Shown one piece after another: positions 2,767 through 31,910 of a stretch of 39,344 nucleotides of DNA. The stretch is from positions 1-39,344 of IMG/VR virus record IMGVR_UViG_3300033141_005909; one strand, written 5' to 3'. Both the position numbers and the translations under genes were made by a program. The notes under the pieces were generated by a model, which saw nothing but the letters and a program-made list of their open reading frames with translations, had not been told where the DNA came from and did not search any database. Numbering within the stretch: position 1 is the stretch's first letter; each line of letters begins with the position of its first letter. Source of the DNA: a virus.

Positions 2767-3690
2767 ATGGCAGACATAAAAAAAGCAGTTTTAGAAGGCA
2801 CAGACAAATATGGTGGTTATTTAACACCAGAAATTTTGTCAAGAAAAGTCTATGCTATTGTTCAAAATAATACAGTTATGGTTCCTCTGATGGAGCAAGT
2901 TAAGTTGAAATCCGATACTACTTATTTGCCAAAAAACACAAAAGGTTCAACAGCTTATTGGGTTGCAGAAACTCAATCTATTACTGCCTCTACACCTGAA
3001 TGGGAAAGAATTACACTTTCTCCAAAAAAGGTTGCGGCATTAACAGAACTTTCAACAGAGTTATTAGAAGATGCGGCAGTAAATCCAGCGGTTGCTAATT
3101 ATGTAATGGAACAAATGGGTAAAGATATTGGTTTATCTATTGACAATGAAATCATCAATGGAACTCAGGGTCAATTCACAAATTATTTGAGATCTACAGG
3201 AAGTTTTACTAATTCTGTTACATGTGGTGCAAGCACAAATGGTGGAAACATCACATTAGCAAAAATAAGTGATGCAATCAATGAAGGTGAAAAAGATAAT
3301 TTCCGATATGATGTTTCTATCTTTAATCCTCGAACAGTGAATTCTTTGAGAAAATTAACAGATAGTAATGCAAGACCAATGTTTGATGAAGCAACATTTG
3401 GTTCCCCAATATTGAAAGATGGAGCTTTAGGAACTATCTATGGGACTACTGTCTTTGCAACAAACCAGATACATCATACTGCAAGTTATGGAACAGCAGG
3501 AGATGCAACTGATGCAATTATTGGAACTAAGAAGAAATTTGGTGTTTATGGTATGAGAAGGAATCTAACCTTCCATAAAGATTATGATATTGCCCATGAT
3601 TCATGGGATTATCAGGCAAATATGAGAGTGGCGTTCAATATCTTGTATAGTGAAGCATACTGTGTTATCAGAGCAATCTTAGACGATTAA
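2767..3690 (+). CDS. HK97-fold major capsid protein
   Basis: 307 residues from ATG 2767 (MADIKKAVLEG). I prefer this to an in-frame ATG at 2731, which lies inside the preceding gene. The pattern is that of phage capsid family PF05065: GGYLTPEI near the start, VPLMEQVKL, WVAETQSIT, KKVAALTELSTELLEDA (spine helix region), FNPRT, and a C-terminal segment ending in RAILDD. It forms the icosahedral shell. No N-terminal delta domain is present, which agrees with scaffold function lying in the preceding gene. Followed by a T-rich terminator, as suits a highly expressed gene. Confidence 0.88.
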   Translation: MADIKKAVLEGTDKYGGYLTPEILSRKVYAIVQNNTVMVPLMEQVKLKSDTTYLPKNTKGSTAYWVAETQSITASTPEWERITLSPKKVAALTELSTELLEDAAVNPAVANYVMEQMGKDIGLSIDNEIINGTQGQFTNYLRSTGSFTNSVTCGASTNGGNITLAKISDAINEGEKDNFRYDVSIFNPRTVNSLRKLTDSNARPMFDEATFGSPILKDGALGTIYGTTVFATNQIHHTASYGTAGDATDAIIGTKKKFGVYGMRRNLTFHKDYDIAHDSWDYQANMRVAFNILYSEAYCVIRAILDD

Positions 3691-4552: not shown

Positions 4553-4993
4553 ATGGCAATAAGTAAATCAAATTTGTATGAAGAAGCATACAATGTAGTG
4601 AAAGACCTCATTACTAAATATATTTCTGATCCAACTAAAGCATATAAAAGAAAATGGATTTATTCATCAATGCCTGATATTTCCAAGCCAAGATTTAAAT
4701 TTCCATTTATTATAATAAATTCTCCAGATATTTCTCAAGAAAATAGAGATTTTAATACAGGAAAAGGAAATACTTATAGAATTTTAATTACTGTTTGGAG
4801 TGATAAAGAAAGTGAAGTAGATGAATTGTCATCAGACATTCAAGCAACCTTAATTAATCATGAATCAGATTTAAATAATAATAATCTATATAATCCAGAA
4901 ATAAATTCAAGTCCTTTTAATATGGTATTAGATCAAAATGGAAAAAAACTATATAACAGGCCAATAGGAATAATTTGCAGGGGGTGGATATAA
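4553..4993 (+). CDS. Neck / tail-completion-like protein
   Basis: 146 residues. By position (after the connector, before the HK97 gp10-like gene) and by its alternating strands, for example FPFIIINSP, YRILITVWS and a final PIGIICRGWI, it resembles the small neck or tail-terminator proteins that cap the tail tube. An LSSD tetrapeptide near residue 92 is encoded by a copy of the repeated GTCATCAGACA motif. It ends immediately before the next ATG. The exact neck role is not certain. Confidence 0.55.
   Translation: MAISKSNLYEEAYNVVKDLITKYISDPTKAYKRKWIYSSMPDISKPRFKFPFIIINSPDISQENRDFNTGKGNTYRILITVWSDKESEVDELSSDIQATLINHESDLNNNNLYNPEINSSPFNMVLDQNGKKLYNRPIGIICRGWI
4828..4838 (+). repeat. GTCATCAGACA motif copy 1 (within neck gene)
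   Basis: TTGTCATCAGACA in the coding frame, read as Leu-Ser-Ser-Asp. Confidence 0.5.
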
Positions 4994-5456: not shown

Positions 5457-6038
5457 ATGGTTAATTTAACACAACAAATATGGATGAAACAACCTTATGT
5501 TTCCATAGCTCGTATAGATGGAAATGAAATGCAATTTAGATCACGAACAAGCACATTGAATATTACTGGTGATAATTTTGATATTGAAGGTATTGAAACC
5601 TTTGGCGGTAAAGTAACAAGAATTGGCTCAAGAGAAGATATAGAAATTAGCATGGATATTTTTCCATTAAGTGCAGAGCATACTGATTTTGATGCTCTAT
5701 TTTATGGACATACTGGATCAAGTTCAATTATTACTGCAAGTGATCAACTTAAATACAGAATTTGTTTATTATGGACAAATGAAAGCGGAATAACAAGTGG
5801 TGCAGAAGCGATAGCAAGCGGTTCTGATGCATATAGAAGAATTTATGCAGAAGGATATATCACAAATATGGAAGTTAGTCAAGATGCTGGTGAAGAGTTA
5901 AAAGGAACAATTACTTATAAAACATCACCTGAAGATGAAAATGGTGATAGTAATCGTAAGATTGAATCTTGCACACCAGATGGAACACCTGTTACATTAG
6001 GAGCAGTTGCTTCATACACTTCAACAACTAAATGGTAA
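5457..6038 (+). CDS. Major tail tube protein
   Basis: 193 residues, mostly beta strand, placed between the tail-completion gene and the tail chaperone, the standard position of the tube protein. Segments such as NITGDNFDIEGIETFGG, REDIEISMDIFP and GYITNMEVSQDAGEELKG resemble tail tube proteins that mention target fields such as a raised loop and a final strand pair. Shine-Dalgarno CGGAG lies 9 bases upstream. It would polymerise around the tape measure to form a non-contractile tail; no sheath gene is present. Confidence 0.7.
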   Translation: MVNLTQQIWMKQPYVSIARIDGNEMQFRSRTSTLNITGDNFDIEGIETFGGKVTRIGSREDIEISMDIFPLSAEHTDFDALFYGHTGSSSIITASDQLKYRICLLWTNESGITSGAEAIASGSDAYRRIYAEGYITNMEVSQDAGEELKGTITYKTSPEDENGDSNRKIESCTPDGTPVTLGAVASYTSTTKW

Positions 6039-6353: not shown

Positions 6354-6734
6354 ATGTTAGATATAGAAAGACTAAGAGCAAAGCCAAAAGAAGTGGAGTT
6401 TATGGGTGATACTATCAAGATTTATCCATTGAAAACCAAACAGATTGCTGAATTAGGGGAATTACAAGCCAAAAATAAGTTTGCAGATGCAACAATGATG
6501 TTAATCAGAGAAACATTTAATAGAATGTTACAGGAAGAACATATTGCCAAATTGATAGAACAAGGCAAAACTCGTGAGGAAGCAAAAAAAATACCCTTTA
6601 AAAAACTTACAGATGACGATATTGATGAATTTGATCAAAAAAGTTTGAATGAATTGATGCCTCATATAATGGAAGTTAATGGTTTGAAAATTCCAGAAGA
6701 AAAAGACAATCAAAAAAAAACTTCAAAGCAATAA
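6354..6734 (+). CDS. Tail assembly chaperone, short (gpG-like) form
   Basis: 126 residues from ATG 6354; a TTG 15 bases earlier lies inside the previous gene and is unlikely. The position between tail tube and tape measure, the size, a start with strands (VEFMGDTIKIYPL) and a helical remainder fit lambda gpG-like chaperones. The frame ends at 6734, shortly after a nine-A run. A -1 slip there gives the longer GT form (ending 6940). The chaperone coats the tape measure during tail assembly and is absent from the virion. Confidence 0.75.
   Translation: MLDIERLRAKPKEVEFMGDTIKIYPLKTKQIAELGELQAKNKFADATMMLIRETFNRMLQEEHIAKLIEQGKTREEAKKIPFKKLTDDDIDEFDQKSLNELMPHIMEVNGLKIPEEKDNQKKTSKQ
6712..6720 (+). 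promoter_or_regulatory. Programmed -1 frameshift site (A AAA AAA)
   Basis: Nine A residues read in frame as caA AAA AAA Act, a perfect X-XXY-YYZ slippery heptamer. Shifting -1 moves ribosomes from the short chaperone frame, which stops at 6732-6734, into a frame open to 6940. That second frame has no good start codon of its own at its beginning. Confidence 0.75.
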
Positions 6735-6940
6735 TTGATCAACAAATTAGCGGCAAAACATCAACCTTAGATCAAATAATTTGTGAAGGCACATATGCTC
6801 TTTTAAGAAACATGCAAGGATTTAATATTGAAGGAATTATGGAAATGCCAATTTCTCAATTCTTTTTCTTACTTGATGGTCTTTCTAAAGAATATAAAGA
6901 GTGTGAAAAGAAAAATACAAAAAGGGGGGTAAGGAAATAA
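6719..6940 (+). CDS. gpT-like extension of the tail chaperone (frameshift product)
   Basis: About 73 residues in the -1 frame relative to the chaperone (NFKAIIDQQISGKTSTLDQ onward, through MEMPISQFFFLLDGLSKEY). The frame runs open from the slippery A run to a stop at 6940, directly abutting the tape-measure ATG. Length and placement match the T half of G/GT chaperones. The full fusion would be about 195 residues from 6354. There is no independent Shine-Dalgarno at its start. Confidence 0.7.
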   Translation, partial: NFKAIIDQQISGKTSTLDQIICEGTYALLRNMQGFNIEGIMEMPISQFFFLLDGLSKEYKECEKKNTKRGVRK

Positions 6941-8419
6941 ATGGTTCAAACTGTTCATGATATAATTATTAGACTGAAACAGGAAGGAATGAATGAGACA
7001 GCTAAAGCTGTGCAACAACTTGGGCCTCAATTAAAAAATTTAAAGAAAGGAGAAACAGCTGTTGCTTCTGGAACTAAAATAATGAATCAAGGTGTGCAAA
7101 AAGCAACTATTGTTTTTAAACGAAATAAAAAAGGTATCTTAGAAGTTTCAAAATCATTAACTACAAATGTTTCAAATATGAGAAGATTTAGAATGGAATG
7201 GTTGTCTGTTATGTTCTTTTCTATGAATGTCTCACGACGACTTAGAGGAATAATGATGGGTTCTGTATCAACTTTAACTAAAATTGCTGGAAAAAATAAT
7301 GAGGCGGCACAAACTGTTGCCGCACTTTCAGCACAATTCACTTACCTTAAATTTGCAATAGGAAGTGCAATCGGTGAAGCACTTCAACCATATATGCCAA
7401 TTATTGCTAAATTTGTGGATAAAATGGTGGAGTTTATTGAACAACATCCTGATTTAGTTTTCAAAGGACTTGTTGGTGCTTTTGTAATTTTTGCAGGATT
7501 AAATATCGCAGGACAATTAGCTTTAGTAGCAACTGGTTTTATGCAAATTGCTACAAATGCAATGGCAGCAAAAACAGCTGTAATGGGATTTAAAACATTA
7601 GGAGCAATAGCAACAGCAACAATTGGATTATATATTGCTTATGGGGGAATAAAAGATATAATTAAAGGAATTTCTGAAGCGGATTGGAAAACAATTTTAA
7701 AAGGAATTCTTACAGCAGGAGTTGGTGGAGCCCTTGTAGGTGCGGCGGCGGCGATTGCTCTCGGAACTCCATTACTTGCATCAGCAGTAATTGGAGCAAC
7801 TGTTGCTGTTTCAATTGGATTAATACTTGCATTTTATATTAAAGATACTAAAAGAATTGAAAGATTAAGAGCAAGAGGTTTATCAGAAAAAGATATAGCT
7901 CAATTAAAAATAGAAGAAATATTTGGAATTGATACAGGTATTTCTGGATTTGCAAGGATGCAGAGAGAAGTAGATGATTTTCTTCAACAAGCAAAAAATT
8001 CAGCAAATGAAACAAGTGAGAGTTGGCAAAATTCATGGAGGCATGCATTAGGAAAATATAAATTATCTACTCCTTTAGGATGGTTATTATTACAAGTAAG
8101 TCAAGAATGGATTAATATGGCTAATGTAGCAACATCTCAAATTGATAGAATTATAGCTAAAATAAATACAATTCCAAGAGAGATTGTTACAACTGTGAGA
8201 ATAAGGACTATTGGAGGAGGAATTGGAGTAAGAGGATTTGCTACTGGGACAGATTATGTTCCAAAAACAGGAATGTATTTGCTTCATAGAGGAGAACAAG
8301 TAATTCCCAACAATATTACAAATAATGTGAATGTAAATGTTTCTGGAAATCAAAATGCAAATGCAATTGCTCAGGCAATTTCAGAAGAATTAAATAAAAA
8401 ATTGAGGAGGTATATCTAA
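6941..8419 (+). CDS. Tail tape measure protein
   Basis: 492 residues. A helical N-terminal third (GMNETAKAVQQLGPQLKNLKK) is followed by the MRRFRMEWLSVMFFSMN segment common to archaeal-virus tape measures. Long hydrophobic Gly/Ala-rich stretches occupy about 175-300 (GGALVGAAAAIALGTPL), and the end has GTDYVPKTGMYLLHRGEQV, a typical tape-measure C-terminus. Shine-Dalgarno GGGGGG lies about 20 bases upstream with AAGGA closer. At roughly 0.15 nm per residue, a known rule for siphovirus tapes, the tail would be about 70-75 nm long. The hydrophobic segments may also help genome delivery across the membrane. Confidence 0.82.
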   Translation: MVQTVHDIIIRLKQEGMNETAKAVQQLGPQLKNLKKGETAVASGTKIMNQGVQKATIVFKRNKKGILEVSKSLTTNVSNMRRFRMEWLSVMFFSMNVSRRLRGIMMGSVSTLTKIAGKNNEAAQTVAALSAQFTYLKFAIGSAIGEALQPYMPIIAKFVDKMVEFIEQHPDLVFKGLVGAFVIFAGLNIAGQLALVATGFMQIATNAMAAKTAVMGFKTLGAIATATIGLYIAYGGIKDIIKGISEADWKTILKGILTAGVGGALVGAAAAIALGTPLLASAVIGATVAVSIGLILAFYIKDTKRIERLRARGLSEKDIAQLKIEEIFGIDTGISGFARMQREVDDFLQQAKNSANETSESWQNSWRHALGKYKLSTPLGWLLLQVSQEWINMANVATSQIDRIIAKINTIPREIVTTVRIRTIGGGIGVRGFATGTDYVPKTGMYLLHRGEQVIPNNITNNVNVNVSGNQNANAIAQAISEELNKKLRRYI

Positions 8420-12035: not shown

Positions 12036-12331
12036 AAACTTTAAGCGAGAAAAGAATATTAGTAGATGAATATTTTGCACATTATACAGAAGAAGATGTC
12101 AAACAATTCATAAAAGAGATTTTAGAGGAGATTGAAAGAAGAAAAAAACACCATATGAAACATTTTGATAGGTATATAAGAGAAACAGAAAAATATGCAG
12201 ATGATGAAAAGCAAGTTGAATATTCAGAAAATCAAGCAATAAAAGAAATGAATATTAATGATGAATTAAATGAATTAGAAGAATTTATTAAACGAAAAGC
12301 AGGCAAGGAGCTGGTAGATAATGAAAACTAA
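12032..12331 (+). CDS. Helical protein of unknown function
   Basis: 99 residues, charged and almost wholly helical (VKQFIKEILEEIERRKKHH, then NDELNELEEFIKRKAG). ATGA overlap with the preceding gene and an 11-base overlap with the next. Coiled-coil interaction protein likely; family unknown. Confidence 0.55.
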   Translation: MKTLSEKRILVDEYFAHYTEEDVKQFIKEILEEIERRKKHHMKHFDRYIRETEKYADDEKQVEYSENQAIKEMNINDELNELEEFIKRKAGKELVDNEN

Positions 12332-12680
12332 ACCACAATCTTTAGATTTGGAAGGGATAAAGAAAAATATCATAGATAGAGTATATAAAGAAACAATTTA
12401 TGAAAATGGAAAAAAATTCTATAAATCTAAAAAAGAAATACCAGACCCCATCATTATTGCATTAGATATTTGTTTTGATGAAATCAAACAACGCCTCAAA
12501 TCAGCCTGCGAGTTTTATTTGAGATATAAAGACAAGCCAGAATTATTAGAAAAAGAAAATCATAAATTATGGGTAAAAATATCTAATGAGAATAGAATAA
12601 CAACAGGAAAAGTAACTGACCAATACAACGAATGGCTATTCAAACTTGCATTTAAAGATGTTTTGGAGGAGGAAAAATGA
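12321..12680 (+). CDS. Hypothetical helical protein
   Basis: 119 residues, mixed charge. The middle (PIIIALDICFDEIKQRLKSAC) is a clear amphipathic helix. Starts inside the end of the previous gene behind AAGGAG and overlaps the next by four bases. Nothing recognised beyond membership of the small-gene operon. Confidence 0.5.
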   Translation: MKTKPQSLDLEGIKKNIIDRVYKETIYENGKKFYKSKKEIPDPIIIALDICFDEIKQRLKSACEFYLRYKDKPELLEKENHKLWVKISNENRITTGKVTDQYNEWLFKLAFKDVLEEEK

Positions 12681-14104: not shown

Positions 14105-14357
14105 AATAGAAATAAAATCAAATACTTGTTGGTTATGCGGTGAAGAAACTGCTCAAAAAGAAAGACATCATGCAATACCTCAATTTTTAAAACCAAAAAA
14201 GAATTTATGCATCACAGTTTGTAGAAAATGTCATCAAAAAATAAATTCTTATACAATTCAATCAGTTCCAAAATTTAAAGCAATTGATAACTTGTTAAAT
14301 AGTTTAAAAGAAGCAATTAAAAAATATGAGAAGAAATTAGATAGATATAGAATATGA
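14097..14357 (+). CDS. Small HNH endonuclease-like protein
   Basis: 86 residues. CWLC (11-14), the HNH core ERHHAIPQF (His24, His25) and VCRKCHQKIN (Cys42, Cys45, His46) are the pattern of small HNH nucleases. A basic coiled-coil ends the protein. It lies at the end of the zinc-protein operon, overlapping the glycosyltransferase by four bases. Targets unknown. Confidence 0.65.
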   Translation: MDEIEIKSNTCWLCGEETAQKERHHAIPQFLKPKKNLCITVCRKCHQKINSYTIQSVPKFKAIDNLLNSLKEAIKKYEKKLDRYRI

Positions 14358-15010
14358 AAATTTTATTAGTTTATTTAGAAGAAGATGCAAAATTAAAAAG
14401 ATGTTTAAATAGCTTGAAAAAGTATTCTCCAGAAATAGAGGTTGTCAAACACAAAGCAGATTCAACTAAAACAAATGTAGCAGAAGAAATATATAATGAA
14501 TTAATCCCTAAAATAGATGATGATGTAATGATATGGCATCCAGATATGGAAGCAACAGAAGGATGGTATGAGAAACTTAAAAATTATTATTCTGTATTTG
14601 ATGTTATTGGAGTTAAATTAGTTTATCCAAATGGATTGATAAATCATTATGGTGGATGGTTGAGGCATGATGGTTGTGGAATTCATCCACATCAATATTG
14701 CATGGATTTTTGTTTAGAAAAACCAATGGAATGTGTTTATGTTACAGGACCAGGAACTTTAATAAAGAAAAGAGTTTTTAATAAAGTAGGTAAATGGGAT
14801 AATCAGTTTGATTATTTCATTGATGTAGATTATTGCTTTAGAGCCAGAGAAAAAGGATTTAAAGTAGGAGTAGTGCCAGTAAAATTAATCCATCATGAGA
14901 GAGGAGATAATTCAAAAAGATGGAATCAAAAAGAAAATATAAAGCGATTAACAAATTCATGGAAAAAATTCATAACTAAACATCAAAATATATTAGCAAA
15001 ATACAAATGA
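14354..15010 (+). CDS. Family 2-like glycosyltransferase
   Basis: 218 residues. Starts with the GT-A nucleotide-binding strand MKILLVYLEED; the metal-binding region reads DDDVMIWHPDME (around 57-68). A GPGTLIKKRVFNKVG segment and FIDVDYCFRAREKGFKVG (around 125-175) are the acceptor-side signature of GT2 enzymes acting on cell-surface glycans. It would transfer a sugar from a nucleotide-sugar to a glycan or protein. First gene of the modification block, overlapping the radical SAM gene by four bases. Confidence 0.72.
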   Translation: MKILLVYLEEDAKLKRCLNSLKKYSPEIEVVKHKADSTKTNVAEEIYNELIPKIDDDVMIWHPDMEATEGWYEKLKNYYSVFDVIGVKLVYPNGLINHYGGWLRHDGCGIHPHQYCMDFCLEKPMECVYVTGPGTLIKKRVFNKVGKWDNQFDYFIDVDYCFRAREKGFKVGVVPVKLIHHERGDNSKRWNQKENIKRLTNSWKKFITKHQNILAKYK

Positions 15011-15864
15011 AACTTCCAATAAGATATAATTATGCTGAAGCATATTTAACATTAAGATGTAATTTAGGATGTAGTTATTGTATAAATGATAATTCTGGAG
15101 TAAAAAGAAACAGGAAAGAATTAAGTGCAGATGAATGGGCAAAAGCATTAAATAGAATAGATTTTGGAGAAACACCTTTAACTCTTGGAGGTGGAGAACC
15201 TACATTATATAAAGGATTTTATAATTTATTAGATAAATTAAAGCCAGATATTCAGGTTGATTTATTAACAAATTTAACTTTTAATGTTGATGAATTCATC
15301 AAAAAAACTAAACCAGAAAGATTTACTCAAAATAATATTCCAAGTTATAAATCAATCAGAGCAAGTTTTCATCCAGAAAAACACAACCCAAAAGATTTAG
15401 TAGATAAAGCAGCTAAACTGCAGAATGAAGGATTTCAAATTGGAATTTTTGCATTAAATCATCCTAAAAACATGATAAAAAATATGGAAATAGCTGAATT
15501 AGCAAGAAAAAATAAAATCTATTTCTTTATAAAAGATTTTTTAGGCTGGTTTGACGGACAATTGTTTGGGTATTATAAATATCCAAAAGGATTAGATGGT
15601 GATAGAAAATTAGCAGATTGCAGAACAAAGGAGTTGTTAATTGCTCCAGATGGTGAAATTTATAGGTGTCATAGAGATTTGTATCATGCTGAAAATCCAG
15701 TTGGACATTTATTAGATGAGAATTTTGAAATTCAAGATGTTTTTAGACCTTGTAAAAATTATGGATTATGTAATCCGTGCGATTTAAAATTAAAAACCAA
15801 CCGCTTCTTTCAAATGGGGAATTGTAGTGTGGAAATAATTGAAAATGAAACAAAAAAAATATAG
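15007..15864 (+). CDS. Radical SAM protein (first copy)
   Basis: 285 residues. The CNLGCSYC cluster (Cys18, Cys22, Cys25) binds the 4Fe-4S centre; LGGGEPTL (61-67) is the SAM-binding GGEP motif. The C-terminal part has Cys residues at about CRTK, CHRD, PCKNYGLCNPCD, resembling a SPASM-like auxiliary cluster region. Such proteins carry out radical modification of sugars or peptides; the substrate cannot be read from the sequence. Flanked by glycosyltransferases, so a glycan or precursor is likely. Confidence 0.78.
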   Translation: MKLPIRYNYAEAYLTLRCNLGCSYCINDNSGVKRNRKELSADEWAKALNRIDFGETPLTLGGGEPTLYKGFYNLLDKLKPDIQVDLLTNLTFNVDEFIKKTKPERFTQNNIPSYKSIRASFHPEKHNPKDLVDKAAKLQNEGFQIGIFALNHPKNMIKNMEIAELARKNKIYFFIKDFLGWFDGQLFGYYKYPKGLDGDRKLADCRTKELLIAPDGEIYRCHRDLYHAENPVGHLLDENFEIQDVFRPCKNYGLCNPCDLKLKTNRFFQMGNCSVEIIENETKKI

Positions 15865-16588
15865 GTTATTAAGTATTTGTTCAAGTAGAACATATCCTAA
15901 AAGATTAAGAGAAATGCTGAAAAGTTGGAAGCGAACAAGAACTAAAGGATTAAGCAGAATTTTAATTTATATTTGGGATGAAGACCCAAAAATTGAAGAA
16001 TACAAAAAAATTATAAAAGAATTTAATGATGAAGATATTGAATTTATTTTAGGTAAATCAAGATTTATGACAGAAGTTCTAAATTATATTTCAACAGAAG
16101 TTTATCCAGATTATGATTATTATCAAAATATTAATGATGATCATTATTATGTAGTTAAAGGGTGGGATAAAATGATGATTGATCCTTTGGATAAGAATGG
16201 AGGATGGGGGATTAGTTATTGTAAGGGAAAAAATGATGCTCATAATCCTAATGCAGAGATTATTTCAGGAAAAATAGTAAGGGCATTAGGTTATTATTAT
16301 TATCCAAAATTCAGACAATTTGGCATTGAAGGTTTTGTTATATCTTTAGGACAAGCATGCGGATTTTTTTTGGTTTCAGAAGTAATCGAACATAGATGTA
16401 TTAATATTGGTTATGGAGAAAAAGATGAAACATGGAAATTCATTTATAGTCCTTCAGAAGCATTGCATGCAAGAAGTGCAAGTCAGGAATGGAAAAGCAA
16501 AATGGATGGAGAATTGAAAAAGATTAGAGATATAATTGCAACAGAAATGAAAGAGGATTTTAAAAAAGGGGGGATTGAATATAGATGA
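15845..16588 (+). CDS. Glycosyltransferase-like protein (GT-A type)
   Basis: 247 residues from ATG 15845; a TTG six bases earlier is less likely. Two N-terminal segments (YRLLSICSSRTYPKRLREML and ILIYIWDED) look like the nucleotide-binding half. INDDHYYVVKGWDKMM at about 100-115 carries a DDH in place of DxD, followed by a C-terminal region with AGGF-like GQACGFFLV. It overlaps the radical SAM gene by 20 bases. The sugar and acceptor are unknown. Confidence 0.6.
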   Translation: MKQKKYRLLSICSSRTYPKRLREMLKSWKRTRTKGLSRILIYIWDEDPKIEEYKKIIKEFNDEDIEFILGKSRFMTEVLNYISTEVYPDYDYYQNINDDHYYVVKGWDKMMIDPLDKNGGWGISYCKGKNDAHNPNAEIISGKIVRALGYYYYPKFRQFGIEGFVISLGQACGFFLVSEVIEHRCINIGYGEKDETWKFIYSPSEALHARSASQEWKSKMDGELKKIRDIIATEMKEDFKKGGIEYR

Positions 16589-16848
16589 AAGATGAAGAAG
16601 AAATAATCAGGTGGGTGATGCAGGATGAAATTGTTAAATCCAATAAATTAGTTGCTGAAAGAGCATGTAAATTGATACTCAATTATTGGGAAAATCATTT
16701 GAAAGAATTAAGAAAAAAATTATTGGAGAAAGTTGATTGGGTATGGGATAAATATTCTGAAACAGGCAAGATGGATGGAGCGAAATTATCACATATTATA
16801 AGAGTTTATGATGATGAATTAAAAAAGAAGTTTGGAATAAATGGATAG
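16585..16848 (+). CDS. Hypothetical helical protein in the modification block
   Basis: 87 residues, helical, with Trp-rich patches (WVMQDE, NYWENH, VDWVWDKYSE). Shine-Dalgarno-like GGGGGG lies about 15 bases upstream. Four-base overlap with the glycosyltransferase and eight bases with the membrane gene. No family recognised. Confidence 0.45.
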   Translation: MKDEEEIIRWVMQDEIVKSNKLVAERACKLILNYWENHLKELRKKLLEKVDWVWDKYSETGKMDGAKLSHIIRVYDDELKKKFGING

Positions 16849-17233
16849 CCGTATAAAAAGTGCAAGTAAAAGTATTTTCTGGAGAATAACAGGAATTATT
16901 ATTTTAGCAGTAATTACATATGCCTTTACAGGAAATTGGATACAAACAGGATTAATTACATTTATTCATCATTTCATATTTATTTTTGTATTTTATTTTC
17001 ACGAGAGAATTTGGATTTTAAATAAATCAATTACAGGATTAAAAAGAAAAATTTTAAAGATGTTTATTTATGAAACCTTTTTAGGAAATATAATTTTAGG
17101 TTCAATTACTTATTTGATTACAGGCAGTTGGAAGGCAATGACTGCAATTACACTAACTTATATTGGAATTAAACATATACTTTATATTTTTAATGAATTT
17201 ATTTGGGAGAATAAAAATTTTCCAATAAAATGA
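16841..17233 (+). CDS. DUF2061-type membrane protein (internal duplication)
   Basis: 130 residues, four likely membrane helices. The first half (KSIFWRITGIIILAVITYAFTG, ending in HERIWI) is a DUF2061 repeat, and the second half (YETFLGNIILGSITYLITG, ending in NEFIW) is a degenerate second repeat. In many genomes DUF2061 proteins occur beside APS kinase genes; here a CysC-like fusion lies at 30082. Its role is not known, perhaps transport or anchoring linked to sulfate or nucleotide chemistry. Confidence 0.65.
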   Translation: MDSRIKSASKSIFWRITGIIILAVITYAFTGNWIQTGLITFIHHFIFIFVFYFHERIWILNKSITGLKRKILKMFIYETFLGNIILGSITYLITGSWKAMTAITLTYIGIKHILYIFNEFIWENKNFPIK

Positions 17234-17637
17234 GAATAGTATATTGTTATGTGGTTTGTGATATCCTTCATATAGGGCATATTTTATATTTAGAAAATGC
17301 AAAAGCAATGGGAGATTTATTAATAGTCGGGGTTTTAACAGATGAAGCAGTAATGGAAAAGAAACCAAAACCAATATTCTCATTTGGAGAGAGAATTAAA
17401 ATAATTAAAAGTTTAAAATGTGTAGATTTAGCAATCCCGCAGGTTTCTTATTCTCCAATTGAAAATATTACAAAATTAAAACCAGATATTTTAATGGAAA
17501 GTGATAGTCATTCAAAAAAAGATTTAAAAAAAATCCTGAAAACCTGTGAGAAATTAGGAATAAGAATGGTAATTACGCCTTATTATCCTGAACAAAATTC
17601 AACTAAATTAAAAAATAAAATTAAAAATGGTAAATGA
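17230..17637 (+). CDS. Cytidylyltransferase-like nucleotidyltransferase
   Basis: 135 residues. The catalytic HxGH is present as CDILHIGHILYLENAKAMGD (His14-Ile-Gly-His17 region), with IVGVLTDEA after it and EQNSTKLKNKI at the end in place of the usual S-T-x-K/R-I motif. Size and pattern match glycerol-phosphate or ethanolamine-phosphate type cytidylyltransferases, which make CDP-activated headgroups. Next to a LicD-like gene, it may supply a CDP-linked phosphate group. Confidence 0.72.
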   Translation: MRIVYCYVVCDILHIGHILYLENAKAMGDLLIVGVLTDEAVMEKKPKPIFSFGERIKIIKSLKCVDLAIPQVSYSPIENITKLKPDILMESDSHSKKDLKKILKTCEKLGIRMVITPYYPEQNSTKLKNKIKNGK

Positions 17638-18166
17638 AAATATGAAAAATGCACTTTTTGAATTTGATGATATAGCAAAAGAGTTGGAAATTACTTATTG
17701 TCTTGGACAGGGAACTTGTTTAGGATTTTATAGAGATGGAGATTTTATTAAAGGAGATAATGATATTGATATTGAAATTTGTGTTGATAAAGTAAAATTA
17801 AAAACATTGTTTAATAGATTGCTTGAAATGGGATATGAAGATGAAGATGGAATTGCATACTGCAATATAATTTCAGATAAAGATTATGAATTAAATCAGC
17901 ATTTTAAAAAAGAATTTTCAATGCTTGATATTTTATTTAAATTTGATGGATATAGAAAAAAGTTTCATAAAAAATTTCAGACAATTGAATTTGAAGGAAG
18001 AACATTTAATCTGCCTTCTCCAGTTGAGGAATATCTTGAATTAGAATTTGGAAAAGACTGGAATAAGCCAAAAGATTTGAAAAGCAGGGGAATGAAATCA
18101 TTGCATCCTTATATTGTGGGTAAAGCAATTAAATTTCCAATTATTAATTATTTTAAATATGGTTAA
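17627..18166 (+). CDS. LicD-like phosphotransferase
   Basis: 179 residues. YCLGQGTCLGFYRDGDFIKG followed by DNDIDIEI is the LicD/fukutin nucleotidyltransferase-fold signature (active-site Asp residues in DNDID). LicD enzymes move phosphocholine or similar groups from CDP carriers onto glycans. The preceding cytidylyltransferase fits as its supplier. Its start overlaps that gene by 11 bases. Confidence 0.72.
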   Translation: MVNENMKNALFEFDDIAKELEITYCLGQGTCLGFYRDGDFIKGDNDIDIEICVDKVKLKTLFNRLLEMGYEDEDGIAYCNIISDKDYELNQHFKKEFSMLDILFKFDGYRKKFHKKFQTIEFEGRTFNLPSPVEEYLELEFGKDWNKPKDLKSRGMKSLHPYIVGKAIKFPIINYFKYG

Positions 18167-19244
18167 AAGAATGATGGATTCTACTAAGATGATTTATCAT
18201 TTAGATAGAGTTAAAGATTTTTATGAGAAAGGAAAAAAAGTATCTCCTATTTTAATCAATATTGGAGTTACTAAAATGTGCAATTTAGATTGTTGTTATT
18301 GTTTTGGAGTAAAACAAGGTAGAGACCAAAAAAGCATGATTCAAAGAAAACCGCTTTTAAGATTATTTGAACAAGCCTCAAAATTAGAGATTAAAGCAAT
18401 GGAAATTATTGGAGATGGAGAACCAACTATCAATCCTCATATTTATGATGCAATGGATATTGGAAAGAAAAATGGATTGGATATGGCTTTTGGAACTAAT
18501 GGTATTCTGCTGGATACAGATGAAAAAAGAGAAAATATATTGAGAAATTGCAAGTGGATGAGAATTAATTTATCAGCAGGAAATAGAGAACAATACAAAC
18601 AAATTCATAGGCGGGATTATTTTGATAAATTAATTAAAAATATTGAAAGATTAGTTGAATTGAAAAAAGAAAAAGGATATAAATGTGATATTGGATTGCA
18701 GGCTGTTTTTGTTCCAGATTTAATGAATCAGCATATGTTGGATGAGAGTGATTTGGCTGTTAAATTAGGAGTGGATTATTTTGTAATAAAACAATGCAGT
18801 CTGCCTGAAGGCAATACAAAAGTAGCAGATGTAGAATTTGATGTAAATAGATATGATGATGAAGATATTCAAAATCTTTTAAAAAAGTGCGAAGCAAAAT
18901 CAACTGATAAAACAGAGATTATTCCAAAATATAAAGCAATTAGTCTGAAAGGAAACAGGCCTTATGACCATTGTGTTGATGTTCCTTTTCTATTTCAGGT
19001 GAGCGGGAATGGAAAGTGTTATCCATGCGGTTATTTATTTGGTGATGAAAGATATGAATATGGAGATTTAAATAAACAAAGTTTAAAAGAAATTTTAGAA
19101 AGTGATAGATATTGGAAAATTGTAAATTATATGATTAATGAATTTGATGTTCATACACAATGTGCAGGACATTGTCGTCATGACAGTTCAAATAAATTTG
19201 TTTGGGATTATTTAAATAAACCAGAATCAATTAATTTCATATGA
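18159..19244 (+). CDS. Radical SAM protein with SPASM-like C-terminus (second copy)
   Basis: 362 residues from ATG 18159, which sits at the end of the LicD gene; an in-frame ATG at 18114 is inside LicD and unlikely. CNLDCCYC (Cys41, Cys45, Cys48) is the radical SAM cluster and IIGDGEPT (83-90) the SAM-binding loop. The C-terminus has CVDV, CYPCG and CAGHC clusters that would hold extra Fe-S clusters, as in SPASM or twitch proteins. It is distinct in length from the first copy. Substrate unknown, probably a glycan precursor or peptide. Confidence 0.76.
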   Translation: MVKRMMDSTKMIYHLDRVKDFYEKGKKVSPILINIGVTKMCNLDCCYCFGVKQGRDQKSMIQRKPLLRLFEQASKLEIKAMEIIGDGEPTINPHIYDAMDIGKKNGLDMAFGTNGILLDTDEKRENILRNCKWMRINLSAGNREQYKQIHRRDYFDKLIKNIERLVELKKEKGYKCDIGLQAVFVPDLMNQHMLDESDLAVKLGVDYFVIKQCSLPEGNTKVADVEFDVNRYDDEDIQNLLKKCEAKSTDKTEIIPKYKAISLKGNRPYDHCVDVPFLFQVSGNGKCYPCGYLFGDERYEYGDLNKQSLKEILESDRYWKIVNYMINEFDVHTQCAGHCRHDSSNKFVWDYLNKPESINFI

Positions 19245-19834
19245 AAAAGGAGTTAATTAAGTTTGAAAATAAAGTAAAAAAATTATTTGAAAAGGGAAAA
19301 CTTCCTTATCCAATTCATTTTTGCGGGGGAAATGAGGAGGATTTAAGCATAATTTTTAATTCAATTAAAAAAAATGAATGGGTATTTACAACTCATAGAA
19401 ATCATTATCATTGTTTGTTGAAAGGTATGCCTAAAAAAGAATTATTGGAAAGAATTAAGAGGGGAAGAAGTATGAATGCTTATTCTAAAAAATACAAAAT
19501 ATTTGGCAGTTCAATTGTAGCAGGAAATTGCGCTATTGCAGTTGGTGTAGCTTTGGCAATTAAAAGAAAAAAGAAAAAGGAAATGGTCTGGTGTTTTGTT
19601 GGTGATGGAGCAACAGATGAAGGGCATTTCTGGGAAGCATTAAGATATGCAGAAGGACATGATCTGCCTATAATTTTTATTGTAGAAGATAATGGATTGG
19701 CTGTTGATACTCCGCAAAATGAGAGATATAATTTAATAAAAGATTTGGATAAATATAAAAAAGTTTTTAGATATGAATATAAAAGAAAATATCCGCATGT
19801 TCAAACAGGTAAATGGGTAGATGCTTATATGTGA
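19241..19834 (+). CDS. Thiamine-diphosphate enzyme, E1-alpha-like subunit (minimal)
   Basis: 197 residues. The TPP-binding motif GDGATDEGHFWEALRYAEGH begins at 121 and ends in VEDNGLAVDT (about 148-157); the RSMNAYSKKYKIFG and SIVAGNCAIAVGVALA segments are as in E1-alpha or transketolase N-halves. Usual E1-alpha proteins are about 330 residues; here the C-terminal part is missing, leaving the cofactor domain. It pairs with the next gene, which supplies the pyrimidine-binding domain. The reaction is unknown, perhaps ketol or decarboxylation chemistry on a sugar precursor. Confidence 0.75.
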   Translation: MKKELIKFENKVKKLFEKGKLPYPIHFCGGNEEDLSIIFNSIKKNEWVFTTHRNHYHCLLKGMPKKELLERIKRGRSMNAYSKKYKIFGSSIVAGNCAIAVGVALAIKRKKKKEMVWCFVGDGATDEGHFWEALRYAEGHDLPIIFIVEDNGLAVDTPQNERYNLIKDLDKYKKVFRYEYKRKYPHVQTGKWVDAYM

Positions 19835-19835
19835 A

Positions 19836-20321
19836 ATGGATAAAATGAAAATTAAAAAAGAAATGGAAGAATTGGCAAAAGATAAAAAAGTTGTTTTTAT
19901 TGGTTATAATTTGAAATATGGAAGCCAATGCTATGGAAGCTTAAAGAACATTCCAAAGAAGCAGATAATTGAAATGCCTGTGGCGGAAAATCTAATGACT
20001 GGAATAGCAATAGGGATGAGTTTAGAAGGATATAAGCCTGTTCTAATATTTGAAAGACACGACTATATGTTGAATGCATCTGACCAATTAATCAATCATT
20101 TAAGCAAAATAGAGCAGATGAGTGATGGAGAATTCAAGCCTCATGTAATTATCCGTTCAATTTTAAAAACAAAACCCTTTAAACCTGATGAAACTCATAT
20201 TCAAGATTTTACAGATTTTTTTAAAAAACATTTAAGTTTTCCAGTTAAAGAATACGAGCAGGGCATTTATTTGAAGGCATTAAAAGAAAATAAATCAATT
20301 ATGGGGGTTGAAAGATGGTAG
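19836..20321 (+). CDS. Thiamine-diphosphate enzyme, E1-beta-like subunit (minimal)
   Basis: 161 residues from ATG 19836; ATG 19821 inside the previous gene is an alternative start. The pyrimidine-binding domain is clear: VVFIGYNLKYGS, then EMPVAENLMTGIAIGMSLEG, with the Glu that activates thiamine, and a DYMLNASDQLINHLSKI stretch. The C-terminal transketolase domain of normal E1-beta is absent. With the alpha gene it makes a compact two-subunit enzyme. Confidence 0.73.
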   Translation: MDKMKIKKEMEELAKDKKVVFIGYNLKYGSQCYGSLKNIPKKQIIEMPVAENLMTGIAIGMSLEGYKPVLIFERHDYMLNASDQLINHLSKIEQMSDGEFKPHVIIRSILKTKPFKPDETHIQDFTDFFKKHLSFPVKEYEQGIYLKALKENKSIMGVERW

Positions 20322-22191: not shown

Positions 22192-22862
22192 ATGTAAAGA
22201 TATACGGCTTAAGAAGGTCTGGGACAAATTATATCGCAAGTTTGTTGGAAAACAACTTTAAAGATGATGTTTTAATTCATATTGGCTGTTCTAAACATGA
22301 TATTCCTCAAATTTTAACAAAAGAGAAAATTCAAAAATGGATTGATGTTAGAAATTGTCATCAGACACCCTAATCAAAAAAGAACACTTTAAAGACATAT
22401 ATCAAATAGATAGAGTCTTAAATCAGGAAACTAAATATATTTATATATATAAAGATATTTTCAGCTGGTTATGGTCTTATAGAAAATATTCAAGATTTAA
22501 TCTTAATCATCCATTTGAACCCCCTTTAAAATTAACAGAATTCAGCCAAAAACAAAAGATTAGGCAGTTAGTTGATAAATAACTTCACATATTTAAAAAA
22601 AGCACGCCAGATTGGCTGTATTCTAATCAAATATGAAGAACTATTAAAATCGCCCTTTAAAATATTAGAAAAATTAGAAAAAAAATTTAAACTCACTAAA
22701 AAGAAGAAAAACTTTCAAGATAATGAATTCTATATTGGAGCAGGATTTACTCAATCTAATGAAAGATTTAACAAATCCTTTTATTTGAAAAAAGAATATT
22801 TAAAGGATTATACAAGAGAACAAGTTGATTTTATCACAAATCTTCTAAATAATTATTCTTAA
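22188..22862 (+). pseudogene. Sulfotransferase-like gene broken by two frameshifts
   Basis: Three frame pieces read as one protein: GLRRSGTNYIASLLENNF (P-loop-like sulfate-donor site, RRSGTNY), then TKYIYIYKDIFSWLWSYRKY, then CILIKYEELLKSPF. The first shift lies at 22356-22370, exactly at a GTCATCAGACA motif; deleting those 11 bases (22357-22367) restores the frame. The second shift is near 22580, where two bases appear missing before AACTTC. Together they look like a decayed gene, or a sequencing error at one site. A sulfotransferase would use PAPS, which the CysC-like kinase at 30082 could make. Confidence 0.6.
22357..22367 (+). repeat. GTCATCAGACA motif copy 4 (at a frameshift)
   Basis: Sits at the first break of the sulfotransferase-like gene; removing these 11 bases restores the frame. 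Confidence 0.6.
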
Positions 22863-23997
22863 AACTTTCTTCAATTGAACAATCGTTAGAAAAGGAATAA
22901 ATGTCAATCTCATCAGGCATACAACCCTGAGCAATCTTCTCACTCAGCCAATTAACTAATTCCAAATATCTATTTCCAAACTTTTTCTTAATCTCTGGAT
23001 TATCATTTAAATATTTGATTGCTATATCTCTTTCATCCTGACTAAACGTTTTGTTTTTATCTATTTTTTTCAATTCTTCATATCCAAAATCCTGAAATTC
23101 AGGATTTATCTCTCTCCCTCTTGATGTAATAGCAATATATCCTTTTTTAATTAAATCCGGCTCAATCTCATATTTGATATAATCTTCGCTTTTTCTTAAA
23201 AATAAACTAATTATACGAACTCCAACTTTTTTATGTTTTTTAACGATTTCTAAATATTTTTCCTGCAAATCAGACAAACCAGAATATAGATTAATTTTTT
23301 TTAATCTAAATACTTTTTCTAATGTTTTCAAACTATAATCCCCATATAACTGCATCATATTTAATAGATTATTCAAAATACGAATATTTGTAGAAAAATT
23401 AAGCAAATATTCACTAACCTGTTTATTGCATCCTTTTTTTTCAAGCAATTCCATTAATAAATCCTTATCCAATTCGCTTAATTCAATCTCTTGAAACCTG
23501 TTCCGCAATGGTTTTGATAATGCCTGCGGTTCAGTTGTTGTTGCAACAAACATACAATCCAAAGGAACAATTTTCCCATCTACTGCTAATTCTCCATCCT
23601 GTATTGCAGGATATATAATTTCAGAAGTTTTTGTATTCCAAGAATGGATTTCATCAATCAAAACCAAGCAATTCGGCTTTAAATTGCTTAAAATATTAAT
23701 AACTTTCTCACTTCTCATATTCCCATTCAAATAGATGAAAGGACGCCCTGTTTCAACACTTAACATTCTCCCAGTAGAAGATTTTCCAGTCCCTTCCTGT
23801 CCAAATAACAGCAGATTAATATTTTCTTTTCTTGCTTTCTGAATTATCAATCTTAAAATCTCCTTGACATTTTCCTCATAGATTAAATCTTCAAATTGAG
23901 GGGCAGTTAATTCTTCTCCAATAGGAGCAATTTTATTGATCTCCCCTTTTTCTTCAACTTCTATATTGAGGTAATCTTCCTCTAATTTTTCAAACAT
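22834..23997 (-). CDS. RuvB-like AAA+ Holliday-junction motor
   Basis: 387 residues. Walker A GQEGTGKS (66-73), Walker B VLIDEIH (112-118), a segment AIQDGELAVDG in the RuvB position, sensor 1 VATTTEP, and PLRNRFQ with the arginine finger. The C-terminal winged helix has DLIKKGYIAITSRGREIN, which matches the RuvB C-terminal domain. RuvB drives branch migration at four-way junctions in bacteria and is normally absent from Archaea. Its 3' end overlaps the sulfotransferase-like gene by 29 bases, tail to tail. Last gene of the minus-strand operon. Confidence 0.78.
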   Translation of the reverse strand: MFEKLEEDYLNIEVEEKGEINKIAPIGEELTAPQFEDLIYEENVKEILRLIIQKARKENINLLLFGQEGTGKSSTGRMLSVETGRPFIYLNGNMRSEKVINILSNLKPNCLVLIDEIHSWNTKTSEIIYPAIQDGELAVDGKIVPLDCMFVATTTEPQALSKPLRNRFQEIELSELDKDLLMELLEKKGCNKQVSEYLLNFSTNIRILNNLLNMMQLYGDYSLKTLEKVFRLKKINLYSGLSDLQEKYLEIVKKHKKVGVRIISLFLRKSEDYIKYEIEPDLIKKGYIAITSRGREINPEFQDFGYEELKKIDKNKTFSQDERDIAIKYLNDNPEIKKKFGNRYLELVNWLSEKIAQGCMPDEIDIYSFSNDCSIEESFKNNYLEDL

Positions 23998-28496: not shown

Positions 28497-28646
28497 ATGC
28501 CTCAAGTAACAATTACATTAAGTCCTGAAGCAAATTCATTTGCAGAAAAATATTCTAAAGATACAGGCAGAACTAAATCAGGATTCATTGATTGGTTAAT
28601 TAAAAAATTTAAGGAAAAAGAAAAAAAAGATTTTATTAGAAAATGA
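28497..28646 (+). CDS. Ribbon-helix-helix regulator
   Basis: 49 residues. A first strand (PQVTITLSPEAN) is followed by helix one (FAEKYSKDTG) and helix two (TKSGFIDWLIKKF), the ribbon-helix-helix layout. Such proteins bind inverted repeats as dimers. ATGA overlap with the chaperonin gene. It probably regulates the divergent region. Confidence 0.65.
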   Translation: MPQVTITLSPEANSFAEKYSKDTGRTKSGFIDWLIKKFKEKEKKDFIRK

Positions 28647-30073
28647 ATGATGAAATTCAGTATATTCAATTGGCAATCAAATATGCAGATTTAGTTAAAA
28701 CTACTCTTGGACCTAAAGGGAGAAACAAGCTCGTTAAATTTGATTCTAATTTATTGGTTACTAACGATGGAGCCACAATTATGAAGTCAATTAAAACAGA
28801 AAATCCAATAGGAGATTTATTTAAAAGACTTGCAGTTAGTCAAGAGCAGATTGCAGGTGATGGGACTACTACTGCGATTGTTCTGGCAGGCAGTTTATTG
28901 CAGAATGCTATGGATCTCATTAAGAAGGGAATGCATCCAAGCAATATAATTAATGGATATAATTTGGCTAAAATAGCCAGTTTAAATATTTTAGAGGAAT
29001 TAAAATTTGAAGGAGAGTTGGATCAGATTATTCAGACATGTTTGGGAAGCAAGGTAAGTCAGGAGATTAGAGAAAAAATAATTGAAGTCCTAAAATCAGC
29101 TCAAATAGATTATCAAAAACTTAGAATACACAAGCAGGACAATCAAAAAAATAATGTAGAATTAATAAATGGATATGGATTGAATGCTTTTGTGAGAAAT
29201 GAAAGAATGCCCAGTGAAACAAAAGGAAAAACATGTCTTTTGGATTTTAAAGTAAATTTGAAAACAACTGAGCAGTATAATTTGAAAGATGCAGATGAAT
29301 TGGAGAAGCTTGAAGATAAGGAAAAAAAATTTGCCAAACAAATAGTCAATAATCTGAAGAAAGCAGATATTAAATGTGTTTTTTATACAGATACCAGCAG
29401 GGAATTTGAAGCATATCTAACTAATGAAGGAATTAGCGGAATTCTTTTAAGAAAAAAAGATGATATAGACAATATTTCACTTGTTCTAAATAAAAGAGCA
29501 ATTCCTGATAATAAGGTTGATTTCGCTCAATATGCGGCAGAAGCTGAAATGCAGTCAAATAAAGGTTCAGTTAAATTAAGTTCAAAAAATTCTCAAATTA
29601 AGACATTAATTATTTCAGGACAGACACTTCAAATATTAGAGGAAATTCAAAGGGCATTGGAAGATGTTGTTACAATTCTAAAGCACGGCAATGAAGTAGT
29701 AGTGGGGGCTGGAGCCATAGAAATGCAGATTGCTAAAAAAATCAGGGAAATAGAAGTGAAAGGCAAGGATCAGATTAGTTTTCATAAATTTGCCAATTCA
29801 TTAGAAGCTATCCCAATGCAGATTGCTGAAAATTGCGGCATGGACAGCTGGCAGTTGATAACAGAATTAAGGGCTCTTCACAAAACAAACCAAAATATTG
29901 GAATTGATGTTAATAATAAATTAGGTTATTCTGATGCTAAAAGCAGGGGAATTGTAGAGCCTGTAATGGTTAAGATTTATGCAATTGCAAATGCTGTTGA
30001 TGTTGTTAATTTAATTTTAAAATTAGATACAATTTTAGTAGGAGAAGAAAAAGAAAAAAAAGATAAAATATAA
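28643..30073 (+). CDS. Group II chaperonin (thermosome-like)
   Basis: 476 residues. TTLGPKGRNK (20-29), NDGATI (41-46), the ATP-binding GDGTTT (72-77), Asp341 (the position of the hydrolytic Asp in RALED), and GAGAIEMQIA (355-364) identify it. The apical domain runs from about 165 to 320 with a short protrusion. At 476 residues versus about 540 it lacks the first ~20 residues and other trims. Thermosomes fold proteins in Archaea; a viral copy could fold virion proteins or replace the host one. ATGA overlap upstream shows it is in the early operon. Confidence 0.88.
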   Translation: MNDEIQYIQLAIKYADLVKTTLGPKGRNKLVKFDSNLLVTNDGATIMKSIKTENPIGDLFKRLAVSQEQIAGDGTTTAIVLAGSLLQNAMDLIKKGMHPSNIINGYNLAKIASLNILEELKFEGELDQIIQTCLGSKVSQEIREKIIEVLKSAQIDYQKLRIHKQDNQKNNVELINGYGLNAFVRNERMPSETKGKTCLLDFKVNLKTTEQYNLKDADELEKLEDKEKKFAKQIVNNLKKADIKCVFYTDTSREFEAYLTNEGISGILLRKKDDIDNISLVLNKRAIPDNKVDFAQYAAEAEMQSNKGSVKLSSKNSQIKTLIISGQTLQILEEIQRALEDVVTILKHGNEVVVGAGAIEMQIAKKIREIEVKGKDQISFHKFANSLEAIPMQIAENCGMDSWQLITELRALHKTNQNIGIDVNNKLGYSDAKSRGIVEPVMVKIYAIANAVDVVNLILKLDTILVGEEKEKKDKI

Positions 30074-30081
30074 CTTCAAAA

Positions 30082-30816
30082 ATGAATAAAATAATCTGGC
30101 TGACAGGGGAAAGTGGAAGCGGCAAAACCACTCTTGCCTTAAAATTGGCAAAAGAATTAAATGCAATTATATTGGATGGAAATGAAATGCGGGGAAGTAT
30201 TTCTGTCGGGGCGGGATTTTCAAAAGAGGAGAGAGCGGAACATAATTATAGGGTGGCAAGATTAGCAAATGTTTTATCTAAACAAATGAATGTAATTGTT
30301 TCTGTAATTGCGCCAAGCAGGGATGTTAGAAAAAAAATAGACAAAATTTGCTCTCCTATTTGGATTTATGTTAAAAGAAATTTGCCGAAAAGAAAAGGGC
30401 ATTTTTATGAAGAACCGAAGGAATATATTATGGTTGATAGTGATAAAAATACAGTTAAAGAAAATCTTGCTAAAATAAAAAATTTATTTGGAGATAGTAG
30501 AAAATTTTGTTTATTTATTGGAAGATTTCAGCCATTGCATGAGGGGCATAAGAAATTATTTGATGAAGTTAGAAGAGAAGGAAAGAATATTTTAATTGGA
30601 ATAAGAAATACTAATATTGATGAAGAAAATCCTTATTCTATAGATGAAAGAATTAAAATGATTAAAGAAGAAGTTCCAGATGCAGAAGTTATTGTTTTGC
30701 CTGATATTGAGGCTGTTTGTTATGGAAGGAAAGTAGGTTATGATATTAGAGAAATTAAATTGGAAAAGGATATTGAGAAAATATCTGCATCTAAAATTAG
30801 AAAAGGAAAAAAATGA
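30082..30816 (+). CDS. APS kinase-like (CysC) / nucleotidyltransferase fusion
   Basis: 244 residues. Residues 1-130 form the CysC-type kinase: P-loop GESGSGKTT (9-17), LDGNEMR, GFSKEERAEHNYRVA and IAPSRDVR. Residues 141-240 form a nucleotidyltransferase: FIGRFQPLHEGHKKLF (His153 and His156 in HxGH), ending in ISASKIR. The kinase would phosphorylate APS to PAPS, the sulfate donor; the second domain resembles NMN or cytidyl transferases. Overlap of four bases with the next glycosyltransferase ties it to surface chemistry. Confidence 0.78.
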   Translation: MNKIIWLTGESGSGKTTLALKLAKELNAIILDGNEMRGSISVGAGFSKEERAEHNYRVARLANVLSKQMNVIVSVIAPSRDVRKKIDKICSPIWIYVKRNLPKRKGHFYEEPKEYIMVDSDKNTVKENLAKIKNLFGDSRKFCLFIGRFQPLHEGHKKLFDEVRREGKNILIGIRNTNIDEENPYSIDERIKMIKEEVPDAEVIVLPDIEAVCYGRKVGYDIREIKLEKDIEKISASKIRKGKK

Positions 30817-31910
30817 AAGTATTATTTTCAGGTGCGGTGTTTCATCCAACAGGATTTGGGAAGCATTCAAGAGAATTAATTAGAGCAATTAAAAAAAAAC
30901 ATGAGATTCAGATAGATGACTTTTATATTCCCAGAAAAGATATTAATGTAAAAGGATTTGATCAACTAAATAATTCAATTATTAAAGAACTCAAAGATAT
31001 AAATCAAACAATTACAATAATTAATGATTATCCTCACAAATGGGAAAAAGGACATGGCAGAAGATTTGCATTTTTAATTCATGAAGGAAGTAAACTGCCT
31101 GATATTTATATTCAAGCAAGCAGTCAGTTGGATGGAATTTTTGTGCCAAGTCAGGCAACTAAAAATTTGGCTAAATGGAATGGGGTTAAAGTTCCGATTT
31201 ATATAATTCCTGAAGGAGTAGATCCTGATTTTTATTATCCACAGAATAATTCTAAAACAGGGGATAAATTTAAATTTTTATTTATAGGAAGCTGGACAGG
31301 CCAGTTAATTGATAGAAAAGGAGCAGGACTTGTAATTAAAGCATTTAATGAAGAATTCAAAAAAGAAGAAAATGTAGAATTAATTTTAAAAATCTCAACA
31401 TTTTGGGCTCCTAAATTTGATGTCAATCAGGCAATCCAACAGATAATCAGGAAAGAAGATAATAGAATTAAATTTAATCAGGATGCTATCACCCCAGAAG
31501 AAATCAGGCAGTTATATTGGGATGCTGATTGTTTTGTCATGCCTACACAAGGAGAATCATTTGGTTTGACAATTTGTGAGGCAATAGCCTGCGGCGTTCC
31601 TGTAATTGTTACTAATGATAAAAATTCAGGGCATATGGATTATACAAAAGATTTTGTAACCTATGTAAATTGGAAAGAATTAATTCAGGGAGATTTAAGA
31701 TTTTTTCATCCAGATAATAGATTTCCTTTAATTGATTTAGAAGATTTAAAGAAAAAAATGAGAGAAGTTTATGAAAATTATGAAGAAAAAAAGAAAATTG
31801 CATTAAAAGGAAGCGAGTTTGTTAGAAAACAATTTAATTGGGATAATGCTGTTCAAAAAATAGAGGAGGTTTATAATGCTCAAAGTAATATGTCCGAATT
31901 GCAGAAATGA
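30813..31910 (+). CDS. GT4-type glycosyltransferase
   Basis: 365 residues. The start MKVLFSGAVFHPTGFGKHS is the Rossmann acceptor half. The C-terminal half has FIGSWTG, the donor-site segment QGESFGLTICEAIACGVPV with the E-x7-E motif, and an NSGHMDY loop. Transfers a sugar from a nucleotide-sugar with retention, known of the family. Overlaps both neighbours, so it is co-translated with the kinase fusion and the zinc ribbon. Confidence 0.8.
   Translation: MKVLFSGAVFHPTGFGKHSRELIRAIKKKHEIQIDDFYIPRKDINVKGFDQLNNSIIKELKDINQTITIINDYPHKWEKGHGRRFAFLIHEGSKLPDIYIQASSQLDGIFVPSQATKNLAKWNGVKVPIYIIPEGVDPDFYYPQNNSKTGDKFKFLFIGSWTGQLIDRKGAGLVIKAFNEEFKKEENVELILKISTFWAPKFDVNQAIQQIIRKEDNRIKFNQDAITPEEIRQLYWDADCFVMPTQGESFGLTICEAIACGVPVIVTNDKNSGHMDYTKDFVTYVNWKELIQGDLRFFHPDNRFPLIDLEDLKKKMREVYENYEEKKKIALKGSEFVRKQFNWDNAVQKIEEVYNAQSNMSELQK

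Follow-up and report, generated by a model that had tools for sequence, protein, structure and literature searches.

A probable lambda-type −1 frameshift in the tail assembly chaperone locus of an uncultivated virus with a likely archaeal host

The locus directly upstream of the tape measure protein gene in virus record IMGVR_UViG_3300033141_005909 (39,344 nt, analysed at full length and referred to here as the window) most probably encodes a tail assembly chaperone of the lambda G/GT type, made in two forms through −1 ribosomal slippage. It consists of a short 0-frame ORF (G) and a −1-frame extension (T) that overlap at an A_AAA_AAA heptamer. The locus joins the known G/GT class; the searches made here returned no close relative of its lineage among described viruses.

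Reading frames and tail-module context

G extends from an ATG at 6354 to a TAA at 6732–6734 (126 codons) and closes with the codons CAA AAA AAA ACT TCA AAG CAA TAA, with four sense codons separating the heptamer (6713–6719) from the stop. No stop interrupts the −1 frame between 6680 and 6937; it is bounded upstream by a TAA at 6677–6679 and downstream by a TAA at 6938–6940, and the base right after this stop begins the tape measure ATG at 6941. The two frames share 55 nt (6680–6734), within which A_AAA_AAA is the sole in-phase XXXYYYZ site. An earlier note on this DNA had described the heptamer before the short-form stop, a −1 frame of about 73 codons reaching the tape measure ATG and a fused product of about 195 residues; the first two are borne out, the heptamer to the base, and the third matches the size predicted from the frames (122 + 73 = 195 aa). 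The junction of the predicted G-T fusion reads EKDNQKKNFKAIIDQQ, in which KKNFK spans the slip. ATG, GTG and TTG are absent from T before 6812, with −1-frame ATGs at 6812, 6839 and 6845, and since T has no start codon of its own, annotation pipelines will miss it.

Table 1. Features of the chaperone locus and neighbouring structural genes in the window
Feature	Position	Strand	Basis
G, 0-frame ORF, short form, 126 aa	6354..6734	+	Open frame; putative tail assembly chaperone
A9 run with in-phase heptamer A_AAA_AAA (6713–6719)	6712..6720	+	Direct reading; likewise in the relative L002
Two-frame overlap, only place for a −1 shift	6680..6734	+	Frame reading
T, −1-frame extension, 73 codons + TAA	6719..6940	+	Open frame; −1-frame homology in L002
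Tape measure protein gene, 492 aa	6941..8419	+	Pfam TMP_N (E 0.016) and PHROG 13674 (E 0.0026), both weak; position
Probable major tail (tube) protein gene	5457..6038	+	Position only; 80% identical in L002
Tail terminator / gp17-like gene	4553..4993	+	Pfam Tail_completion_gp17 (E 2.5e-6); PHROG 176 (E 7e-5)
HK97-type major capsid protein gene	2773..3690	+	Pfam Phage_capsid (E 1e-36)

The hallmark genes of tailed viruses are present, with Terminase_6C (4e-11) and Phage_portal (2e-25) matches in addition to the capsid protein. The arrangement has the features by which G/GT pairs are recognised: a short ORF directly upstream of the tape measure gene (itself recognised by weak matches) in the tail module, an in-phase X_XXY_YYZ heptamer within the overlap of the two frames, close to where G ends, a start-less −1-frame T ORF ending near the tape measure start, and conservation of the site and both frames, found in one relative. 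The probable tube protein gave no family match in the PHROG search, and its predicted model (pLDDT 37) was too poor for a fold test.

G itself weakly matches PHROG 344 (E 0.006) and PHROG 1749 (E 0.04), both named tail assembly chaperone; its orthologue in L002 gave no tail assembly chaperone family match. The predicted model of G (pLDDT 81) had a best BFVD fold match at E 0.0037, with none at E ≤ 0.001; among the best 50 matches, 11 have tail assembly chaperone or GT as their name, those of N15 (GT) and ChaoS9 among them, and the sixth, likewise weak, is ORF19 of psiM2. Matches in the PDB reached a Z score of 4.0 at best. Since these weak family and fold matches are found together with the frame geometry, a G/GT chaperone is the best reading of the locus, the putative function of G being drawn from geometry, gene order and the weak matches. 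The earlier note's identification of a G/GT tail assembly chaperone is supported by the same evidence and by the conservation described below.

Conservation and expectation by chance

The sole relative found, IMGVR_UViG_3300033149_004112 (L002), comes from a different metagenome and was recovered by a capsid search of IMG/VR. Capsid, chaperone-alignment and terminase-alignment scans of IMG/VR returned this contig alone, plus terminases at 19–23% identity that are unusable for chaperone comparison, and single-sequence scans of the same database with the tape measure, chaperone and terminase returned no relatives. GTDB genome contigs contained no capsid relative, and terminases at 23–26% occurred only in Desulfobacterium/Deltaproteobacteria genomes. 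Against phage records, tblastn of the G-T fusion found nothing and tblastn of the tape measure protein found three matches, all at E 0.1 or above.

Terminase, portal, capsid and tail genes follow one another in L002 as they do in the window, and most shared proteins are approximately 70–80% identical (two are lower, at 50% and 56%). Its G orthologue (12083–12457) is 70% identical to G and contains an A9 run at 12437–12445 with an in-phase A_AAA_AAA at 12439–12445, followed by three sense codons and the stop. A −1-frame TAA at 12436–12438 shares its A residues with the run, which confines any shift in L002 to the 19 nt from 12439 to 12457. The heptamer and both frames, which the earlier note had proposed aligning across relatives, are thus kept in the one relative available. 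Conservation at 6713 was read directly from the sequence, because the lysine run is misplaced when the proteins are aligned with gaps.

The −1-frame proteins of the two genomes are 55% identical over 42 aa (E 1e-15, a single pairwise comparison), the comparison stopping where the L002 contig ends, 43 codons into T. Changes in T at codon positions 1, 2 and 3 number 10, 12 and 16, a slight third-position excess over few codons. Relative to the window, L002 is three codons shorter from a conserved IPE block to the slip codons and one codon longer from the slip to a conserved TLD block; as read from the two sequences, indels have changed the flank lengths while the slip site remained inside the overlap.

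The heptamer phase alone is weak evidence, because every A9 run contains exactly one in-phase A7 whatever its phase, and the window (29% GC) contains 126 A7 runs against 153 expected. The open frame is stronger evidence: a −1 frame of 73 codons stays open in only 22 of 5000 dinucleotide shuffles. The 12 genes common to the window and L002 contain 14 in-phase A_AAA_AAR sites in 3039 codons, approximately one per 217 codons, and the presence of such a site in both short overlaps (18 and 6 codons) is therefore unlikely by chance, at approximately 0.002 by our own estimate. Across the genes of the window there are 33 A_AAA_AAR sites in phase, and the one at 6713 alone leads into a long new −1 ORF outside recognised genes; that at 15852 lies within an overlap with the next gene, where the −1 frame closes after four codons, and that at 30807 leads into the overlapping gene 30813–31910.

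The last of these is an in-phase A_AAA_AAA (30807–30816, + strand) directly before an ATGA stop/start overlap that links a kinase/adenylyltransferase-like gene (30082–30816) to a glycosyltransferase-like gene (30813–31910). Slippage by −1 at this point would join both genes into one reading frame; the site is probably a chance occurrence.

Probable ribosomal slippage and alternative routes to G-T

G/GT pairs generally work by −1 slippage of the ribosome, as reviewed for lambda (PMC5009743). In the window, most ribosomes would read G to its stop and yield the 126 aa protein, while a minority, carrying one lysyl-tRNA in the P site and another in the A site, would slip back one base at A_AAA_AAA; the slipped tRNAs would keep A:U pairing, and reading would continue in the −1 frame through T to produce a 195 aa G-T protein whose frame closes immediately ahead of the tape measure ATG. 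If the lambda model applies, G would coat the tape measure protein, the rarer G-T would bring tail tube subunits to it, and both would leave before tail completion. That the shift occurs, that the ribosome is its agent and that it takes place at such a rate is what we infer. Neither a stable RNA structure downstream of the slip site (z −0.08 in the window and −0.81 in L002 against shuffles) nor an obvious Shine–Dalgarno-like stimulator upstream of it was found.

The programmed −1 frameshift claimed in the earlier note accordingly stands as regards slip site, frames and conservation, while the agent, ribosome or RNA polymerase slipping on A9, is not separable by sequence. RNA polymerase that added an A or lost two on A9 would place G and T in one frame in part of the mRNA, whose normal translation would give the same G and G-T products. 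Both genomes have exactly nine A residues at this place, more than the seven of the heptamer, and runs of at least nine A are depleted (4 against 12.4 expected on the window + strand; 1 against 3.5 in L002, where the single run sits exactly at the chaperone slip site), as expected if such runs are error-prone at either level. There is precedent in Thermus thermophilus dnaX, where polymerase slippage takes the place of a ribosomal shift (PMC5009743). Against this, the haloarchaeal virus HVTV-1 has the same architecture and uses G_GGA_AAG, a site without a long homopolymer, which makes the ribosomal mechanism the general one; two further A9 runs (30891 and 32643) are tolerated inside coding genes of the window, and our literature search found no paper that mentions archaeal RNA polymerase together with transcriptional slippage. 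Ribosomal slippage is thus likelier, and transcriptional slippage is on balance an improbable source of G-T. Its specific form, in which an archaeal RNA polymerase instead of the ribosome makes the G-T of this lineage by slipping on A9, is marginally more doubtful still; if true, it would be a change of mechanism inside an otherwise conserved tail-assembly switch.

T might also be a separate protein made by internal initiation, the heptamer being incidental, given the −1-frame ATGs (those above in the window; 12541 and 12568 in L002) and the frequent, possibly coupled overlaps between genes of the window. A start at 6812 would, however, give only 42 codons, and the segment before the first in-frame ATG is conserved as protein in both genomes (TLD..IC.G.YA.LRN), with no ATG, GTG or TTG ahead of it in either. 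A conserved segment without a start, together with the site in L002, makes internal initiation a poor explanation, and we consider it very unlikely. The same evidence counts against a sequencing or assembly error in an error-prone A9 homopolymer, the true gene being one uninterrupted ORF with no short form: the earlier note had raised such an error as grounds for refutation, but it would have to have happened twice, as L002 (approximately 70% identical, from another metagenome) has the same A9 and frame break at the corresponding position within a matching gene order, and the 0-frame ends have diverged in sequence yet stop three to four sense codons past the run in both genomes, so that this is the least credible of the alternatives.

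Known G/GT systems and the probable host

The locus resembles lambda G/GT in that the gene lies just before the tape measure gene, the heptamer is near the end of G and T has no start of its own. It differs from lambda in its A_AAA_AAA site within A9, in having no recognisable RNA stimulator and in that the fusion has no detectable sequence similarity in phage records.

Among archaeal viruses, a −1 G-T frameshift has been reported for HVTV-1 and HCTV-1, 2 and 5 (PMC5009743, PMC8211752), and one has been predicted for the Halorubrum virus Hardycor1, with G_GGA_AAT as the slip site upstream of the tape measure gene (PMC7911831). According to the passage of PMC3483164 that cites Xu et al. 2004, the slip site of psiM2 is AAAAAAG, and psiM100 and phiCh1 are there grouped with phages sharing the frameshifted-gene organisation. 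With psiM2, HVTV-1, HCTV-1/2/5 and Hardycor1 already published, the statement in the earlier note that the arrangement is seldom documented for archaeal viruses was too strong. Reviews also list a +1 frameshift for HSTV-2.

The scan applied to the window recovers both the annotated HVTV-1 pair at G_GGA_AAG and the published psiM2 site. In HVTV-1, gp129 and gp130 are annotated as G and G-T, T ends 1 nt before the tape measure gene, and the tape measure protein has 480 codons against 492 in the window; unlike the window, it has a G_GGA_AAG site and unrelated sequence. Hardycor1 likewise differs in its G_GGA_AAT site, which is a prediction only. In ORF19 of the Methanothermobacter virus psiM2, A_AAA_AAG is followed by 78 open −1 codons, and a −1-frame TGA overlaps the slip site, as the TAA does in L002; in contrast to the window, 736 nt intervene before the annotated tape measure gene, and there is no sequence similarity. 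The psiM2 site was considered as a new one and rejected, as the part of PMC3483164 citing Xu et al. 2004 already attributes it to that paper. ORF19 of psiM100 (998–1734) also has an open −1 frame, 48% identical to the T segment of psiM2; its overlap contains no XXXYYYZ heptamer and reads GGG AAG AAA AAG AAG, and the heptamer rule is therefore not absolute even among archaeal viruses.

In Drs3 (MH674343), ORF30 (23208–23793) lies upstream of a gene annotated as 'prominin', likely the tape measure gene by position. It has no −1 extension, but 52 codons of its +1 frame (23635–23790) are free of stops and carry no annotation, which suggests a +1 shift, as proposed for HSTV-2.

An archaeal host is likely, as suggested by a group II chaperonin gene and by putative leaderless TATA-type promoters. 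The thermosome-type chaperonin (476 aa, 28643–30073, + strand) scores 262 bits against thermosome_arch, below the 671-bit cut-off, and the PDB entry that it matches best is a group II chaperonin. Of the 27 operon-leading genes of the window and L002, 7 have a TTTAWA box, a motif picked after inspection of the sequences, 24–34 nt upstream of the start codon (mean in shuffles 2.5, with 7 reached in 11 of 1000). This spacing between box and start is that expected of leaderless archaeal promoters. Orthologous genes at 35306 (−) in the window and 3541 (−) in L002 share a TTTATATATA box approximately 29–30 nt before their starts, likely such a promoter. The chaperonin and the boxes support the earlier note's description of the virus as archaeal, though indirectly; the window also encodes a RuvB-like ATPase of bacterial type. 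This AAA+ protein (22834–23997, − strand) matches the RuvB N- and C-domains, is approximately 25% identical to RuvB-like stretches in phage records, and is odd beside a probable archaeal host. No tRNA genes were found.

A metabolic-type cluster on the + strand (14354–20321) encodes two radical SAM proteins, a nucleotidyltransferase and a pyruvate-dehydrogenase-E1-like protein, an unusual cargo for a 39 kb virus contig.

In the literature searched, archaeal G/GT sites have so far been reported from viruses of haloarchaea and Methanothermobacter. An AT-rich, uncultivated lineage with a probable archaeal host now joins this handful, which fits the view that the chaperone switch has been kept across the divide between bacteria and archaea while its proteins have diverged beyond easy recognition.
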